From the NCBI RefSeq assembly GCF_004526345.1, contig NZ_CP038213.1:1922001-1986000 (forward strand): a stretch of 64,000 nt of DNA, written 5' to 3'. Position 1 is the stretch's first letter, and the number at the start of each line of letters is the position of its first letter. The position numbers and the translations under genes were made by a program. This document shows, piece by piece, positions 3,738-53,054 of the stretch. Source of the DNA: Ornithinimicrobium flavum (GTDB lineage Bacteria; Actinomycetota; Actinomycetes; Actinomycetales; Dermatophilaceae). The notes beneath the pieces are model-generated. The model made no database searches. It worked only from the letters and a program-made list of their open reading frames with translations, and was not told where the DNA came from.

Positions 3738-5204
3738 TCAGGTGCCGCAGAAGGTAAGGTATGCGGCAGCGACGTCGGTGGGGGCCGGCTCGGCATACCG
3801 TTCGAGGCCGGGACGCTCCCGGTAGGGATCTGTGACCGCGCCCAGGAGCCGGGTCACGGGCTCCAGGTCTCCCTTCGTGCCGGCGGCCAGAGCCTCCTCG
3901 ACGAGATGGTTGCGGGGGATGTAGACGGGATTGACGCGATCCATCAGCTCCCCGTCCGGAGCGAGGGTCCGCCAACGGGCCAGCCACCGGTCGAGAGCCG
4001 GTCGGTCGAGGACGAGGCTCCGCACAGGTTCGGTGTCCCCACGGGCTGCGACCCCCAGGGATCGGTAGAACGAGGTGTGGTCGACACGGTTGGCCTCGAG
4101 GACCTGCAGCAGGTCATCGGCGAGCGTCGAGACGGTCGCGTCGGTCGCGGACCCGTCGAGGCCGAGCTTGCTGCGCATCCCACGGAGCCACGCTCCGGCG
4201 TAGGTCTCGGGGAATGCCTCCAGGCACTCCGTGGCCAGCTCGACGGCACGCGACTCGTCGTCGTCCAGCAACGGCAGGAGTGCCTCGGCCAGACGCGCGA
4301 GGTTCCACCGGGCGATGACGGGCTGGTTGCCGTAGGCGTAGCGACCCTGGTCGTCGATGGAGCTGTAGACGGTCCTCGGGTCGAAAGCCTCGAGGAAGGC
4401 GCAGGGTCCGTAGTCGATGGTCTCTCCGGAGATCGTCGTGTTGTCCGTGTTCATCACCCCGTGGACGAAGCCGACGAGCATCCACCGCGCCACGAGTTCC
4501 GCCTGCGACGCGACGACGGAGCGCAGCAGGGCGAGGTAGGGCTGCTCGCTCGGTCCGTCGGGCGGACCATGACGGTCACGGGCGTGGTCGGCCAGGCGCC
4601 GCAGCAGCTCGAGGTCTCCGGTCGCCCGGGCGTACTGGAACGTCCCTACCCGGAGATGACTCGACGCGACCCTGCTCAGCACCGCCCCCGGCAGCATCCG
4701 CTCCCGGACCACGGGCCGTCCGGTGGCGACCACCGCCAGCGACCGTGTCGTGGGGATGCCGAGCGCGTGCATGGCCTCGCTGACGACATACTCGCGGAGC
4801 ATCGGACCGACCGCGGCCAGGCCGTCCCCGCCCCGTGCGAACGGGGTGCGCCCCGACCCCTTGAGGTGGAGGTCCCGCAACCGTCCCTCCCGGTCGGTCA
4901 GCTCGCCCAGCAGGAGGGCCCGACCGTCCCCCAGCCGGGGGGAGTAGCCGCCGAACTGGTGGCCGGCGTAGGCCTGGGCGACAGGGGACGCCCCCTCGGG
5001 GACGAGCCGACCGATGAGCAGGCGCACGCCCTCGGGGCTGCTCAGCCAGCGCGGATCCAGCCCCAGCTCTTCCGCGAGGCCCTCGTTGAGCAGCAGCAGC
5101 CGGGGGTCGGGGGCGTCCACGGCCTGCCACGGCACCCCCAGCTCCGGCAGCTCGCGGGCGAAACGGGCCTCGAGCACGACGTCCGGCGGGGTGAGCACAC
5201 TCAT
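3738..5204 (-). CDS. selO: SelO-type protein AMPylase (YdiU family)
   Basis: 488 residues. SelO is a pseudokinase-fold enzyme that transfers AMP from ATP to Ser/Thr/Tyr of target proteins and has been linked to redox stress. The visible family blocks are [16 protein letters not shown] (81-96), the phosphate-binding [14 protein letters not shown] (115-128), and the catalytic/metal region HGVMNTDN (248-255) with DYG (264-266). The tail ends in FCGT, so the antepenultimate residue is an ordinary Cys, as in bacterial SelO; there is no sign of a selenocysteine. The ATG was chosen because a TACCGT hexamer lies exactly 7 nt upstream (5212-5217), fitting a leaderless transcript. It is divergent from pup, where dop might be expected in other actinobacteria. 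Confidence 0.93.
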
Positions 5205-5260: not shown

Positions 5261-5461
5261 ATGTCGCAGCAGCAGTTCGACCGCCGTCGGGACGACGCGG
5301 GCGGGGACGCCCCGGAGCCGGAGGCGCCGCCGGCCGCACCGGCGGCCCAGAGCGCCGAGCGGGACGCCGCCCTCGACTCGCTCCTGGACGAGATCGACGG
5401 GGTCCTGGAGAAGAACGCCTCCGACTTCGTGCACGGCTTCGTGCAGAAGGGCGGGCAGTGA
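5261..5461 (+). CDS. pup: Prokaryotic ubiquitin-like protein Pup
   Basis: 66 residues, the expected size. Pup is an intrinsically disordered modifier joined through its C-terminus to lysines of target proteins. The C-terminal half has the conserved coil ([19 protein letters not shown]) that is recognised by PafA, Dop and Mpa, and the chain ends GGQ. The terminal Gln must be deamidated to Glu by Dop before ligation. The N-terminus is Gln/Arg/Pro-rich and variable, as usual. pafA follows after 20 bases, so the two are probably one transcript. dop and the proteasome genes prcBA are not adjacent. Confidence 0.97.
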
Positions 5462-48142: not shown

Positions 48143-48529
48143 ATGGACGACATCCTCAGCACCCACCCGGCCAAGGACACCTTCGACCTGCCGCAGCTGC
48201 GGGCCGCCATCGAGGCCGCGGCCCGGTGCGCCTCCAGCTGCGCGACGTGCGCGGACGCCTGCCTGCACGGGGACCACGTGGAGCACATGGTCCGCTGCAT
48301 CGACCTCGACAACCAGTGCGCGGAGATCTGCCGCACGACCGCCGACGTCCTGTCCCGCCCCGGTCCGAACGGCGACTCCTGGGAGGAGATCGTGCGCGCC
48401 TGCATCGCCGTCTGTCGCGAGTGCGCGGCGGAGTGTGGCCAGCACGAGCACGACCACTGCCAGATGTGCGCCCGGGACTGCACGGCCTGCGCCGACGCCT
48501 GCGAGGCCCTGCTCTCCGTCGCCGACTGA
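48143..48529 (+). CDS. Four-helix-bundle copper-storage-like protein (DUF326)
   Basis: 128 residues with 16 cysteines spaced along four helices (ARCASSCATCADAC, MVRCIDLDNQCAEIC, IVRACIAVCRECAAEC, HCQMCARDCTACADAC), the Csp1/Csp3-type pattern in which thiolates facing the core hold many Cu(I) ions. No signal peptide, so it resembles the cytosolic Csp3 group. TACCGT 7 nt before the ATG supports an independent leaderless start, although the upstream hydrolase frame reads into it without a stop. Confidence 0.88.
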   Translation: MDDILSTHPAKDTFDLPQLRAAIEAAARCASSCATCADACLHGDHVEHMVRCIDLDNQCAEICRTTADVLSRPGPNGDSWEEIVRACIAVCRECAAECGQHEHDHCQMCARDCTACADACEALLSVAD

Positions 48530-48531
48530 CC

Positions 48532-48564
48532 GGGAACACCGCGGGAACACTCCCTCCCTACGTT
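48532..48564 (+). promoter_or_regulatory. SARP-type promoter: two GGGAACA boxes and TACGTT -10
   Basis: GGGAACA at 48532-48538 and again at 48543-48549, exactly 11 bp apart, then 9 bp to TACGTT (48559-48564). Heptamer direct repeats at 11-bp pitch set just upstream of the -10 are the known binding layout of AfsR/SARP regulators. The same arrangement, base for base in the boxes, occurs at 52131-52163 on the other side of the SARP-like gene. Confidence 0.75.
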
Positions 48565-48608
48565 CCTCCTACCGGCACGGTGCCGGGGAGGAACCGAGGG
48601 AGGACGAC

Positions 48609-49214
48609 ATGGACAACTACTCGACCGGGGTGAGGTCGGCGGCGGTCGCGGCGGCGTTGGCGATGACGGGAGTGACGGCGGCGGCCGGCGGCGCAGCAGC
48701 GGCCCCGCCGGACCCCTGCACCCGGGGATCCGCCCAGCAGGTCGTCAACGCGGGCATCGTGGCGGCCAACCAGATCCGCGAGGGGCGGACCCACACAGGC
48801 ATCGTCACCTCATACCGGGAGTGTGCCTACACCCTCTACGAGGACGGGGCCACCTACACCTTCTCCGACGACGACGTCTTCGCCGGGGTGACCGCCTTCA
48901 CCTGGTGGCGGTGGGAGGAGGAGGACGGGATGACGCGCGACGAGGTCGTGGACATCATTGCGGGGACGGACTACCGCGTGGAGCTGGCGCAGGTCTCGCC
49001 CGACGGGACCGTCGGGGACCTCGTCGAGGTCCCAGTCCTGCGGCCTCCGGTGCGGTTCCACCCGATGCTCGGGCAGGGACTGACCGCCTACCAGACGGCC
49101 GGGGTTATCCTCGACCTCGACCCCGGCACCTACGTGAGCCGGTTCGAGGCGGTCTTCCCGGACCTCGAGGACGAGATCTTCAGCGCCGAGGTCACCCTGG
49201 TGGTGACGGACTGA
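48609..49214 (+). CDS. Secreted hypothetical protein, predicted SARP target
   Basis: 201 residues. Signal peptide (RSAAVAAALAMTGVTAAAGGAAAAP, read with a break, cleavage near Ala32). The mature part has one likely disulphide (PDPCTRGSA and SYRECAYTLYED) and a beta-rich body (TYTFSDDDVFAGVTAFTWWRW, YRVELAQVSPDGTVGDLVEVPVLRP, TAGVILDLDPGTYVSRFEAVFPD). No family recognised. GGAGG lies 6 nt before the ATG. A CCGGCA-CGG-TGCCGG hairpin lies in the leader (48572-48586). Its promoter carries the GGGAACA box pair. Confidence 0.8.
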   Translation: MDNYSTGVRSAAVAAALAMTGVTAAAGGAAAAPPDPCTRGSAQQVVNAGIVAANQIREGRTHTGIVTSYRECAYTLYEDGATYTFSDDDVFAGVTAFTWWRWEEEDGMTRDEVVDIIAGTDYRVELAQVSPDGTVGDLVEVPVLRPPVRFHPMLGQGLTAYQTAGVILDLDPGTYVSRFEAVFPDLEDEIFSAEVTLVVTD

Positions 49215-49280
49215 CCGACGGGCGTCGCGCCGGGGTCGGCGCACCCTGCCGTGCCCCCGCCGCGCCGCTAGGCTCGGCCC

Positions 49281-52160
49281 ATGGCTCCGGCGGGGGCCGG
49301 TAGGACCCTCGAGGTCCGACTGGTCGGCAGGGTGGCGGTCCGCACCACGGCTGGGTGGCGCGACGACTGGCCGCGCCCGGCTGCCCGTCGCCTCGTAGCC
49401 CTCCTGGCTCTCTCCCCCACCCGTTCCGTGCCGCGCGAGGTGGTGGCCGACCGTCTCTTCGGGCACCTGCCGCCGGAGCGGGGGCTGCGCAACGTCTCCA
49501 AGGCACTGAGCCAGGCCCGGGTGGTGCTCGGGCCCGGACTGCTCGAGGGAGACTCGGCCACCGTGTGGATCACCGGGTCGGTGCAGGTGCGCACCGACCT
49601 TGACTCTGACGTGGCCCTGGCCGAACGCGTCCTGGACGGACGCGCGGGGCCGGTGGAGTGGGCCGATCTGCGGGCGGTGTTGGCGCGTGCCGACCAGCTG
49701 CTCTCCGAGGATCTCTACGAGGACTGGGCCCAGGAGCCGCGGCGCAGGCACGAGGCCCTCATCAGCGAGGCCGCGCTCGCCCTCGCCCGCGGCAGCGGCC
49801 TGGCCAGCGACTGGGGCCGGGTGCTGACCCTCGAGCCCTGCCACGTCGAGGCCTGGTCGGAGGTGCTGGACGCCGCGGCCGCCCGCGGTGCCTCCGAGCT
49901 GGGCATCGCCTGGGAGGAGTGCCGCCTGGTGCACGCCCAGGAGCTGCAGCGGCCCCCACCGCCGGAGTTGCGCCGCCTGGCGGACCGGCTGCGCTCCGGC
50001 CCCGGCAGCCCCGCCGCCGTCGACCCCACGGTGGGTCACCGGGACGAGCTGCGGTGGATCGAGGCCCGGCTGCCGACGACGGCCCGGGGCGGCGACAGCT
50101 GGGTGCTCTTCGGGCCGGCGGGCATCGGCAAGACCCACCTCCTGCGACGCGCCGTCGACGGTCTGCGCGAGCGCGGCTGCCTCGTGCTGCAGGCCACGTG
50201 CGTGAGCGAGGACGCGGGCGGGCCCTTCACCGCGCTCCTCCCGGCCCTCCGTCCGGCGGCACGGGCGGGATCCCACCCCCTGGTCGACGTCCTCGAGCGC
50301 GGAGGCTCCGGAGGACCTGAGGGGTGGTCGGCCGTGCGCCTCGCCGACGACGTGGCGGACCTGCTCGACGAATGCGCGGAGCCCCTGGTGCTGGTCGTGG
50401 ACGACGTGCACTGGGCGCACCCGGCGCTGCGCTCGCTGCTGTCCCGGCTGTGCGCGCTCGTGGCCGGGCGCCGCTGGAGCCTCGTCCTGGCCGGGCGCAG
50501 CGACGAGACGGACCACCCGCTGCCGAGCGTGCCCTCCGCGACGTTCGCACTCCGGGTCTCCCCGCTGAGCCCGCAGGACGCCTCCGAGCTGGCACGTCGG
50601 CTGCTCTGGGAGAACGACACGGACGACGCGGGGCGCGAGGGGGTGGTCTGCGAGCTGGTCGCGCGCAGCGCCGGCAACCCCTTCTTCCTCATCGAGCTCG
50701 CCCGCAGCGCGGGCAGCTCACCCGCCGGCGGCCACGACGTGCCGGAGCGGGTGCAGGAGCTGCTGCGCCGACGGCTGGCCGAGGTGGACGCGTCGTCCAG
50801 ACACACGCTCGTGCTCGTGGCGCTGTCCGGCGAGCGGGCCACGCTGCCCCTGCTCGCCAGGATGGTCGGCGAGGAGCGAGCCGAGCGGTCGGTCCGGGTG
50901 CTGCAGGCGCGCTCGTTGCTGACCTCGGGGCCGTCCGGCCCGCGCCCGATCCACCCCCTGCTCAGGGAGGTGGTCATCGCCGACCTGAGCGCGGTCGAGG
51001 CCTGCGCGGCGCACGACCAGCTGGCCGCGGCCCTTGGAGCACTTTCCCGGGAGTCCGGCCGGCCCGACCTGGAGGAGGCCGCGGCCGGCCACACCCTGAC
51101 GGCCTGGACCGCATACCCCTCCCCCGACCGGGCGCCCGGTGCCGCCGCGGCAGGCCTCGCGGCAGGCGGCCGGGCCCTGCGCTCCTTCGCCCCCGACACG
51201 GCGGCCGGCGTGCTGGAGCGAGCCCTGGCCGCCTTCGGGGAGAGCCCGCCCGAGGCTCGGGCCGCTCTGGTGCCGGCCGCGGTGGAGGGCTGGCTCGACC
51301 TGGCCCGGTGCCGGGAGCTGCTGGGGAACCCGGTGGGGGCCGAGGAGGCCCTGCGTGCCGGGCTGGCCCTCGCGGACCGGCCGCTGGACCGGGCCCGGTG
51401 CTCCCGGCGGCTGGCCGCGCTGCACTACCGCAGCGGGCGGATGGCGGACGCGGCCGGTGTCCTGGAGCTGGCTCTGGCCGAGACCACCGACGACCTGGCC
51501 AGGGCGATGCTCGAGACCGAGATCGGCTGGACCCTGCACCGCCGGGGGCGGGCCCGGGAGGCCCTGCCCCTGCTCCGGCGGGCCGCCCAGGTCTTCGAGG
51601 ACGGCGGCAGCTGGGACCTCGCGGCGTGGGCGCTGGACTACCTGGCCATGACCCACGTCGCCCTGGACGAGCCCGCACAGGGCCTGTCGGTCCTCGACCG
51701 GGCCCTGGCCCGCGACGGCGTCGGCCAGGACCACCTGCGGCGTGGTGTCATCGTCATCCACCGAGCGCGGGTGCTCCTCCTGCTCCGGCGGCCCGAGGAG
51801 GCCCTGGGGGCGGTGAACGAGGGGATGAGGATCCTGCGGCGCACGCGGGACCGCTACACCCTGAGCGTCGGCTGCCGGATCGCCGCCGACGTCCACGAGA
51901 CGCTGGGCGACCTGTCGTCCGCCGTGGCCGCGCGCACGGAGGAGATCGCCCTCCTGCGGGGGTCGCACAACGCCCGTCACCTCGCCGTGGCGCACGCGCA
52001 CCTGGCCAGCCTGCACCGGCGGCAGGGTCGCCACGCCGACAGCCGCACGGCGACGGCCGCCGCCCGGGCCGCGGTGGCGCAGGCCGGCGACGCGGACGTC
52101 GAGCAGGCCGTCTCCGCCCGGCTCGGCTCCGGGAACACCGCGGGAACACCCGGCTCCTAG
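49281..52160 (+). CDS. SARP-type regulator with ATPase and TPR-like regions (AfsR-like layout)
   Basis: 959 residues. An N-terminal winged-helix DNA-binding domain (about 8-105: LEVRLVGRVAVRT, RRLVALLALSPTRSVPREVVADRLF, NVSKALSQARVVLG) precedes a BTAD domain (about 108-240: SDVALAERVLDG, EAWSEVLDAAAARGASELGIAWEECR). A P-loop ATPase follows with Walker A GPAGIGKTH (278-286) and Walker B LVLVVDD (369-375). The last ~320 residues are helical TPR-like repeats. There is no C-terminal LuxR HTH, so DNA contact must come from the N-terminus. TAGGCT 6 nt before the ATG gives a leaderless start. It is flanked on both sides by promoters with SARP boxes, and the downstream one lies within its own 3' end. 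Confidence 0.9.
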   Translation: MAPAGAGRTLEVRLVGRVAVRTTAGWRDDWPRPAARRLVALLALSPTRSVPREVVADRLFGHLPPERGLRNVSKALSQARVVLGPGLLEGDSATVWITGSVQVRTDLDSDVALAERVLDGRAGPVEWADLRAVLARADQLLSEDLYEDWAQEPRRRHEALISEAALALARGSGLASDWGRVLTLEPCHVEAWSEVLDAAAARGASELGIAWEECRLVHAQELQRPPPPELRRLADRLRSGPGSPAAVDPTVGHRDELRWIEARLPTTARGGDSWVLFGPAGIGKTHLLRRAVDGLRERGCLVLQATCVSEDAGGPFTALLPALRPAARAGSHPLVDVLERGGSGGPEGWSAVRLADDVADLLDECAEPLVLVVDDVHWAHPALRSLLSRLCALVAGRRWSLVLAGRSDETDHPLPSVPSATFALRVSPLSPQDASELARRLLWENDTDDAGREGVVCELVARSAGNPFFLIELARSAGSSPAGGHDVPERVQELLRRRLAEVDASSRHTLVLVALSGERATLPLLARMVGEERAERSVRVLQARSLLTSGPSGPRPIHPLLREVVIADLSAVEACAAHDQLAAALGALSRESGRPDLEEAAAGHTLTAWTAYPSPDRAPGAAAAGLAAGGRALRSFAPDTAAGVLERALAAFGESPPEARAALVPAAVEGWLDLARCRELLGNPVGAEEALRAGLALADRPLDRARCSRRLAALHYRSGRMADAAGVLELALAETTDDLARAMLETEIGWTLHRRGRAREALPLLRRAAQVFEDGGSWDLAAWALDYLAMTHVALDEPAQGLSVLDRALARDGVGQDHLRRGVIVIHRARVLLLLRRPEEALGAVNEGMRILRRTRDRYTLSVGCRIAADVHETLGDLSSAVAARTEEIALLRGSHNARHLAVAHAHLASLHRRQGRHADSRTATAAARAAVAQAGDADVEQAVSARLGSGNTAGTPGS

Positions 52161-52163
52161 CGT
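52131..52163 (+). promoter_or_regulatory. SARP-type promoter: two GGGAACA boxes and TAGCGT -10
   Basis: GGGAACA at 52131-52137 and 52142-52148, 11-bp pitch, then 9 bp to TAGCGT (52158-52163). The box pair with its 4-bp spacer is identical to that at 48532-48549 (21 bases shared, CCGGGAACACCGCGGGAACA plus C). It overlaps the last codons of the SARP gene; the -10 contains its stop codon. Confidence 0.75.
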
Positions 52164-52206
52164 CCGAGGGACCCGGCACGACGCCGGGAGACCAGAAGGA
52201 GGAGCC

Positions 52207-52650
52207 ATGAGCATCCAGGAGACGCATCCCGTCCGGCGGGAGCAGTCCGTCGAGGAGACCCGGCGCGTGCTGGACGCCTACACGAGCAGCCACGATCCGT
52301 CGTTCATCGCCCCGGACGCGGTCTTCCACGACGTCGCATCCGGGCAGGACCACCTCGGGCGCGAGGCCGTGGCGGGGATGCTGCACCACGTCTACCACGT
52401 CGCGCTCGACGCCCGCGCCGAGACGGTCCGGACCACCGTGGGCGAGGGCGTCGCCGTCCTCGAGGCGGCCGTCGTGGGCACCCACACCGGGGACTTCGCG
52501 GGGGTCCCCGCGACCGGGCGCGAGGTCCGGATCCCCCTGGTGGTGAGCTACCGCATCGCGGGCGGGCTCGTGCAGGAGGGTCACGTCTACCTGCTGGTCG
52601 CCTCCTTCCTGCAGCAGGTCGGGGCCCTCGACGGGGGGCGGGCGTCATGA
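52207..52650 (+). CDS. SnoaL-like (ester cyclase/NTF2-fold) protein, predicted SARP target
   Basis: 147 residues. NTF2-like fold with VEETRRVLDAYTSSHDPSFIAPDAVFHDVASG, LGREAVAGMLHHVYHVAL and HTGDFAGVPATGREVRIPLVVSYRIAGGLVQEGHVYL, close to the SnoaL polyketide-cyclase-like family whose members often have other or no activity. AAGGAGGAG lies 4-5 nt before the ATG. The leader has a CCCGGC-ACGAC-GCCGGG hairpin (52172-52188), in the same place as in the other SARP-box leader. The stop overlaps the next gene's ATG. Confidence 0.85.
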   Translation: MSIQETHPVRREQSVEETRRVLDAYTSSHDPSFIAPDAVFHDVASGQDHLGREAVAGMLHHVYHVALDARAETVRTTVGEGVAVLEAAVVGTHTGDFAGVPATGREVRIPLVVSYRIAGGLVQEGHVYLLVASFLQQVGALDGGRAS

Positions 52651-53000
52651 TCGTGCGCCTCGTCGGCACGGCGGTACTCACCTGTGGTCTGGGCCTGGCG
52701 CCGGCGGTCCCGGCCGTGGCCGGCCCCGCACCCTCGTGGACGAACGAGCGGCTCCTGCAGTGCGAGGAGGGTGAGGTGCGCACCTTCCTCACACCGGCCG
52801 GTTTCGGCAGCCCCTTCCACGTGGTGGGCAGCACCGAGGTCATCGTCCCGAAGTACGTGGAGGTCGTCCTGCCCGGTGGCGAGGGTCCGTTCGTGACGGT
52901 GGACGTGCCCGGCTTCGACCCGACGGCCGACGGTGCCGTGCACTGCTGGTACGTCGACCCCGTGGGCCTGCAGGTCGACCTCCGGGGGCTGCGTCGCTAG
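52647..53000 (+). CDS. Small secreted hypothetical protein
   Basis: 117 residues. Signal peptide (VRLVGTAVLTCGLGLAPAVPAVAG) then a ~92-residue mature part with two cysteines (LLQCEEGEVRTFLTPAGFG and VHCWYVDPVGLQ) that could form a disulphide, and strands PKYVEVVLPGGEGPFVTVDVPG. No family recognised. ATGA overlap with the SnoaL-like gene indicates coupling, so it would share that gene's SARP-box promoter. Confidence 0.75.
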   Translation: MIVRLVGTAVLTCGLGLAPAVPAVAGPAPSWTNERLLQCEEGEVRTFLTPAGFGSPFHVVGSTEVIVPKYVEVVLPGGEGPFVTVDVPGFDPTADGAVHCWYVDPVGLQVDLRGLRR

Positions 53001-53054
53001 CTGCCTGCCGGAACAGGCAGCGCCGCGGGTCCGGTGACGGGCCGGGCCCGCGGC
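53001..53054. terminator. Two hairpins between convergent genes
   Basis: CTGCCTG-CCGGAA-CAGGCAG (53001-53020) begins right after the small secreted protein's stop. It is followed by GCCGCGGG (53022-53029) pairing with CCCGCGGC (53047-53054). They probably terminate transcription from both sides. Confidence 0.6.

Follow-up and report, generated by a model that had tools for sequence, protein, structure and literature searches.

The gene of a large regulator (959 aa) in Ornithinimicrobium flavum is flanked on both sides by the same pair of repeats, each standing just before a -10-like hexamer, and this raises the question of whether the regulator acts on the genes behind these two sites. The window considered here, that is, the whole stretch of DNA that was analysed, comprises 64,000 nucleotides (NZ_CP038213.1, positions 1,922,001 to 1,986,000), and positions are counted from its first letter. 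With a probability of roughly 0.85, we read the locus as a small, two-promoter regulon under a divergent large SARP. According to the initial annotation, the gene encodes a regulator of the AfsR/SARP type whose operators lie at the two promoters flanking it, and at the level of sequence this proposal is supported by the exclusivity of the repeats, their co-occurrence with the regulator, a constraint on codons, the predicted fold and the AfsR-like geometry. The features are as follows:

48143-48529: DUF326 cysteine-rich protein gene, ending directly before operator 1
48532..48550, + strand: predicted operator 1, GGGAACAC-CGC-GGGAACAC, a direct repeat of 11-bp period, with one other exact copy in the genome
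48559..48564, + strand: TACGTT, -10 hexamer of the predicted sec1 promoter, located 8 bp 3' of the 8-mer repeat
48572..48586, + strand: GC hairpin at the predicted start of the sec1 leader (z -0.82 against shuffles)
48609..49214, + strand: sec1, 201 aa, of no known family, secreted as judged by eye, predicted target 1
49269..49274, + strand: TAGGCT, probable leaderless -10 of the regulator, 6 bp before the ATG, without boxes
49281..52160, + strand: large SARP-type regulator, 959 aa, with a SARP domain (about residues 1-240), AAA_16 (251-395) and a TPR-like C-terminal region
52131..52149, + strand: predicted operator 2, GGGAACAC-CGC-GGGAACAC, within the last codons of the regulator (GNTAGT)
52158..52163, + strand: TAGCGT, -10 hexamer of the predicted snoaL promoter, in which TAG is also the regulator stop codon
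52172..52188, + strand: GC hairpin at the predicted start of the snoaL leader (z -2.59 against shuffles)
52207..52650, + strand: snoaL, SnoaL-like protein, 147 aa (PF07366, E 1.7e-12), predicted target 2
52647..53000, + strand: sec2, 117 aa, secreted as judged by eye, overlapping the end of snoaL and predicted to share its transcript

An identical 21-mer occurs twice, at 48530-48550 and 52129-52149, its heptamers (48532-48538 and 48543-48549; 52131-52137 and 52142-52148) are 11 bp apart, and nine bases lie between the 3' heptamer and TACGTT or TAGCGT, all of which agrees with the initial annotation. The repeat unit shared by the two sites is the 8-mer GGGAACAC, so that the gap to the -10 is 8 bp at both and the two sites read GGGAACAC-N3-GGGAACAC-N8-TANNNT on the + strand. 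The distance from the end of the operator to the start of the gene is also similar, 58 bp for sec1 and 57 bp for snoaL, and the hexamer located 17 bp upstream of the -10 is ACACCG in both cases, unlike TTGACA. A scan for consensus promoters was uninformative (0 found, 0.1 expected). In the window, the bare pair with three mismatches allowed is ordinary (5 found, 4.2 expected), and perfect period-11 repeats of at least 8 on both strands show no excess over shuffled sequences (6 against 6.25). By contrast, perfect period-11 repeats of at least 7 that are followed 6-11 bp on by TANNNT are found twice, where 40 first-order shuffles gave 0.075 on average; the rarity of the two sites is therefore due to the pair being exact and standing before a -10.

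The core GGAAC could suggest another kind of promoter, as it resembles the common -35 element of ECF sigma factors, whose promoters usually have 16-17 bp between GGAAC and the CGT-type part of the -10. In the window this distance amounts to 12-13 bp, or to 23-24 when measured from the first copy, so neither site has the GGAAC-N16/17-CGT arrangement, and an exact second copy 11 bp upstream would be needless for an ECF promoter, which makes this explanation hardly credible.

The layout is that of SARP promoters. As described in PMC10936776, these carry direct repeats spaced by 11 or 22 bp, the 3' one lying 8 bp from the -10, and AfsR contacts 8 bp of each 11-bp repeat, leaving the last 3 uncontacted. 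On sequence, this AfsR/SARP layout corresponds to the 8-3-8-8 of the window sites. A regulator bound at such boxes might also act mainly by repressing or blocking both promoters, and boxes lying over the -35 region would suit a repressor too; we regard this as improbable, since neither promoter has a recognisable -35 that could be blocked (the hexamer at 17 bp is ACACCG) and SARPs with this geometry are described as activators in the same source (PMC10936776).

In the genome of 3.71 Mb, the motif extended by its -10 occurs twice without mismatch, on either side of the regulator, and a search on both strands returned nothing at one to three mismatches, as did the reversed control (0). Seven places with two mismatches to the bare pair were considered as further genomic boxes and dismissed, the reversed control giving six and the both-strand search that includes the -10 recovering only the two window sites. 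Across 186 genomes of the family, with up to two mismatches allowed, the extended motif is exact at six places in four genomes, which belong to one genus, probably Ornithinimicrobium. All six lie at the 3' end of the regulator or before sec1, and all six have the layout 8-3-8-8-TANNNT. Two more genomes of the family match with two mismatches, and the reversed control has matches in two genomes as well.

The co-occurrence of repeats and regulator is close. The exact bare pair is found in 4 of 97 relatives (own genome included), and the regulator in the same four and in G004, where it exists only as a fragment at a contig end; no exact pair was found in the 92 relatives without a regulator match. 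These observations bear on the idea that the repeats are the operator of some other transcription factor encoded elsewhere, with the SARP gene lying between them by chance. Homologs of sec1 do exist without a regulator match, in G022 and G024, as this idea would allow; these two diverged homologs, however, show no box, the pair is absent from all 92 genomes without the regulator, and the repeat geometry is that of SARP operators, so we find it unlikely.

On the snoaL side, the arrangement is constant: the motif is at the 3' end of the regulator, before snoaL, in all three relatives with a complete regulator gene, and snoaL then adjoins the regulator in 4/4 genomes, with sec2 present in three of these and absent from G023. 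On the sec1 side it is variable. G023 carries sec1 with the motif on another contig than the regulator, G001 has the box and no sec1 was found there, and the sole sec1 homolog found in G014 (62% identical) lies elsewhere without a box, though the regulator is present. The initial annotation had asked whether relatives of the regulator keep the repeats next to the same genes, and the answer is thus favourable for snoaL (3/3) and mixed for sec1, with the box kept in G023 and missing in G014. As the four snoaL sites are orthologous DNA, they do not count as separate trials, and the independent evidence consists of the two sec1 sites. Upstream of the G014 regulator, 37 nt are similar to the leader of sec1 (30/37 identical, E 6e-4) and the codons after it resemble, by eye, the end of sec1, which is suggestive of a deletion of sec1 at this place. 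A regulator 66% identical to that of the window was found in O. pekingense DSM 21552. A search of the order recovered the window's regulator in its own genome only, among 396 at E 1e-40 (two candidates scored per genome), and a single-sequence query against named genomes gave no match.

Site 2 has a further particularity, as it sits inside the 3' coding end of the regulator, and the first half of its -10 is formed by the regulator stop codon (52158-52160). In all four complete copies of the gene (own included), the stop codon is TAA or TAG followed by CGT, and one spacer base of operator 2 varies among them. These copies share 475 invariant residues, 160 of which (34%) have the same codon. A codon ending in A is identical in all four copies at only three of the 475, and two of these are the neighbouring GGA and ACA in the box; the presence of two of the three among the seven box codons has a p of 0.0006, in a test framed after the data had been seen. 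Pairwise identity is 96% in the box, compared with 69% over the preceding 60 nt of coding sequence. The box thus appears to be fixed at the DNA level, the -10 opens with the stop codon in all four copies, and the predicted operator accordingly dictates the last residues of the protein (GNTAGT). The alternative that the two sites are a recent duplication without function, site 2 being kept as code for the regulator C-terminus, would account for copies identical over 21 bases. We judge it very improbable, as site 1 is non-coding, sec1 of G023 is still preceded by the motif, rare A-ending codons are retained at site 2 and the distance to the -10 is constant while the sequence of the gap varies.

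We return to the reading of the two sites as operators of the regulator between them, for which the protein itself has to be of the SARP type. The initial annotation had described a winged helix with BTAD, ATPase and TPR-like regions. The ATPase is clear (Pfam AAA_16, E 3.5e-15, residues 251-395, with GPAGIGKT at 278 and LVLVVDDVHW at 369), and TPR_12 and TPR_2 are above cut-off, with their best stretches at 669-773, so that an ATPase/NOD and TPRs follow the SARP domain C-terminally, as in large SARPs of the AfsR type. The BTAD part has no Pfam match and is carried by a profile and a structure model. No BTAD was found by Pfam over the whole protein at E <= 0.1, residues 1-250 matched 0 families at E <= 10 (HMMER filters on), a BTAD family search of the genome at E 0.01 found none, and the five regulator copies gave a single BTAD match at 0.014 and a single Trans_reg_C match at 0.21. 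The SARP N-terminus is, by these sequence comparisons, divergent. A profile of the orthologs nevertheless has a match to the SARP chain of AfsR, at E 6e-5 and over residues 30-240. The AlphaFold model of residues 1-250, made from 24 sequences (pLDDT 84.9), has only six matches at E <= 0.001, which are three AfsR chains (8hvr, 8k60) and then three EmbR chains, with TM-scores by query length of 0.52-0.59; the best Foldseek match is AfsR 8hvr (E 4.8e-7, TM 0.58, rmsd 5.9). The modelled N-terminus accordingly has the ODB-BTA fold of the SARP family.

The AfsR residues Q48, W74, P79, T88, R94 and K95 contact DNA and are described as highly conserved in Streptomyces SARPs (PMC10936776). By alignment, their equivalents in the window's regulator are A34, F60, P65 (P/T/A among copies), K74, R80 and V81 (V/T), so that in this low-identity alignment only the phosphate-contacting R94 is clearly kept (as R80), with P79 retained in some copies. 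The base-reading T88 and R92 are replaced by K74 and Q78, which, as far as such an alignment can be followed, would fit a new operator sequence.

The predicted target genes give few clues on what the system does. The secretion of sec1 and sec2 products, claimed earlier, relies on signal-peptide-like N-termini seen by eye. The sec1 protein has no match in Pfam at E 0.1 and its best match among solved structures is at E 0.73; homologs were found in 5 of 31 genomes of the genus (own included). Homologs of sec2 were found in three of the 31 (own included), each beside the regulator, and across 394 genomes of the class in its own genome only (11 candidates scored per genome); a fold model from two sequences gave no usable fold (pLDDT 37). 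Among solved structures, the SnoaL-like protein has distant matches to chains of SnoL, AclR and ester cyclase, at E 1e-4 or weaker. The DUF326 protein encoded before operator 1, which we take to be four-helix copper-protein-like, has no tblastn match in the eight loci examined in relatives. That no biosynthetic genes are nearby, as stated by the initial annotation, holds for the few neighbours examined, among which none was seen.

A CGGC...GCCG hairpin with a loop of 3-6 nt occurs 7-9 nt after the -10 in all six boxed promoters, and a stem of at least 5 pairs is present in 6/6 leaders as compared with 16% of random 30-mers, four of the six being orthologous. Such leader hairpins could stabilise the 5' end of the mRNA. 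Directly after sec2, at 53000-53050, two strong consecutive hairpins without a U tract (z -3.6) are a possible terminator.

The locus had also been described as self-contained, and here a reservation is in order, as the start of the regulator has a separate, conserved -10 of the leaderless type: TA-N3-T stands six bases before the ATG in all five copies (own included), and no box is found there, so that the boxes need not control the regulator itself. The genes upstream of the regulator differ among relatives. In the window's genome, the gap between the end of sec1 and the regulator is 66 bp and no U-tailed terminator was found in this region, so that transcription starting at the sec1 promoter could run on into the regulator and add positive feedback.

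For the mechanism, we propose that two SARP domains would bind side by side on GGGAACAC-N3-GGGAACAC, where no -35 is recognisable, and that the bound SARP would deliver RNA polymerase, together with sigma region 4, to the TANNNT 8 bp downstream. This would switch on sec1 on one side and, on the other, snoaL and sec2, presumably as one transcript. We assume that the SARP domain is restrained by the ATPase and TPR parts until a signal arrives.

Such a scheme has close parallels. In Streptomyces coelicolor, afsS lies directly downstream of afsR. According to PMC10936776, AfsR has, like the regulator here, a SARP domain followed by ATPase/NOD and TPR, and two 11-bp direct repeats stand before its target gene, the sites of SARPs ending 8 bp before the -10. 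Unlike here, the AfsR repeat is CGTT(T/C)ATCGNN (PMC10972967); the ATPase of the window's regulator matches AAA_16 best, its base-reading positions appear to differ as described above, and it has two flanking predicted target promoters, one of them within its own 3' end. The SARP-LAL regulators PimR, SanG and PolR are also similar, with a SARP domain and a large ATPase-type part, heptamers with 4-nt spacers, two heptamers being sufficient for PimR binding, and, in PimR, no LAL C-terminal HTH, which is a further likeness (PMC5930380). They differ by the heptamer CGGCAAG and by regulating antibiotic clusters, and the main PimR site by its three repeats and the absence of -35 overlap (PMC5930380, PMC10972967). 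EmbR of Mycobacterium tuberculosis shares the ODB-BTA fold as judged from the structure match of the model (2fez), and it carries an FHA domain (PMC10936776) and not ATPase-TPR. As the mechanism and architecture would be those of AfsR and SARP-LAL, what is new is the operator sequence, the divergent recognition helix and the very small predicted regulon. No earlier description of this SARP/GGGAACA/SnoaL-like system was found in the open-licence literature of PubMed Central, subscription papers being mostly outside that search.

Using EDLYEDW and GWRDDW-type patterns, 39 loci were gathered, a selection that biases conservation at those residues. A period-11 scan of the 36 distant ones, leaving out the three close relatives L045-L047, gave 7 sites against 1.3 in shuffles; as between 0 and 5 sites were found with each of the other periods in the range 8 to 20, the overall enrichment is weak. 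At three loci (L048, L069 and L072), period-11 sites are near the regulator or its neighbour. At L072 (Desulfobacterales MAG), GTCAGTT pairs occur twice 8 bp before TANNNT (3844-3878 and 5371-5402), which is the geometry of SARP sites. They precede a gene with a weak match to condensation domains (E 2e-4, below cut-off) and one for an acyl carrier protein, and a BTAD-ATPase gene in which BTAD is C-terminal lies beside them. At L069 (Clostridiales bin, 4906-4939), a pair of CTGTAACG repeats, followed after 9 bp by TAACTT, stands before the gene of a 1363-aa protein, and the BTAD-type match begins about 1 kb from the pair.

L048 (also numbered L091), from a Rubrobacter MAG, has a perfect CGTAACA-N4-CGTAACA with TAGGCT 9 bp on, placed divergently from a BTAD-AAA_16 gene (BTAD at 7e-25) and before a SnoaL_2 gene, its predicted target. 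Of 396 genomes searched in the phylum, 112 had matches at E 1e-20, and nine of these, from one family and including L048's own, carry close copies (62-100% identical). A pair of 11-bp period with a TAGNCT -10 is located beside the regulator at 8 of these 9 loci (L091-L099). The family pattern, itself made from inspecting these loci, matches 7/9, the pair of L099 having one mismatch and that of L098 being degenerate and without a -10; a perfect pair of at least 7 is found at L048 alone. A strict scan of the 30 loci L091-L120 likewise has L048 as its one match, the remaining Rubrobacter-family sites having been recognised by inspection, and none of the 21 loci L100-L120 has a perfect pair within about 1.5 kb. 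These regulators resemble that of the window by a SARP domain with AAA_16 (at L048) and by a pair of 11-bp period beside the gene, and differ by the core CGTAAC, the often imperfect pairs, the divergent promoter, an identity of 25% to the window's protein and varying target genes. Behind the sites are SnoaL_2 (L048), a methyltransferase (L093), DUF1326 (L094 and L096) and small ORFs (L092 and L095), and the methyltransferase of L097 starts 187 nt after the site.

SnoaL-like proteins are thus predicted targets in two distant lineages. A tentative generalisation, to which we give somewhat less than even odds, is that BTAD-ATPase regulators well outside the Streptomyces antibiotic clusters may be widespread private switches, each lineage having its own 7-4-7 repeats at the adjoining promoter(s), with the operator long kept, the targets swapped (SnoaL-like, methyltransferase, DUF1326 or small secreted proteins) and the recognition helix changing together with the operator.

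With one regulator and two predicted promoters, the O. flavum locus offers a minimal test case for SARP activation outside Streptomyces, and one that adds a new operator sequence and a recognition helix that is probably divergent. None of the neighbours examined points to an antibiotic cluster. Taken with the sites of the Rubrobacter family, the locus suggests that the SARP operator geometry may be used beyond the regulation of antibiotics and, if this is true, the targets of uncharacterised BTAD-ATPase regulators would be predictable from sequence.
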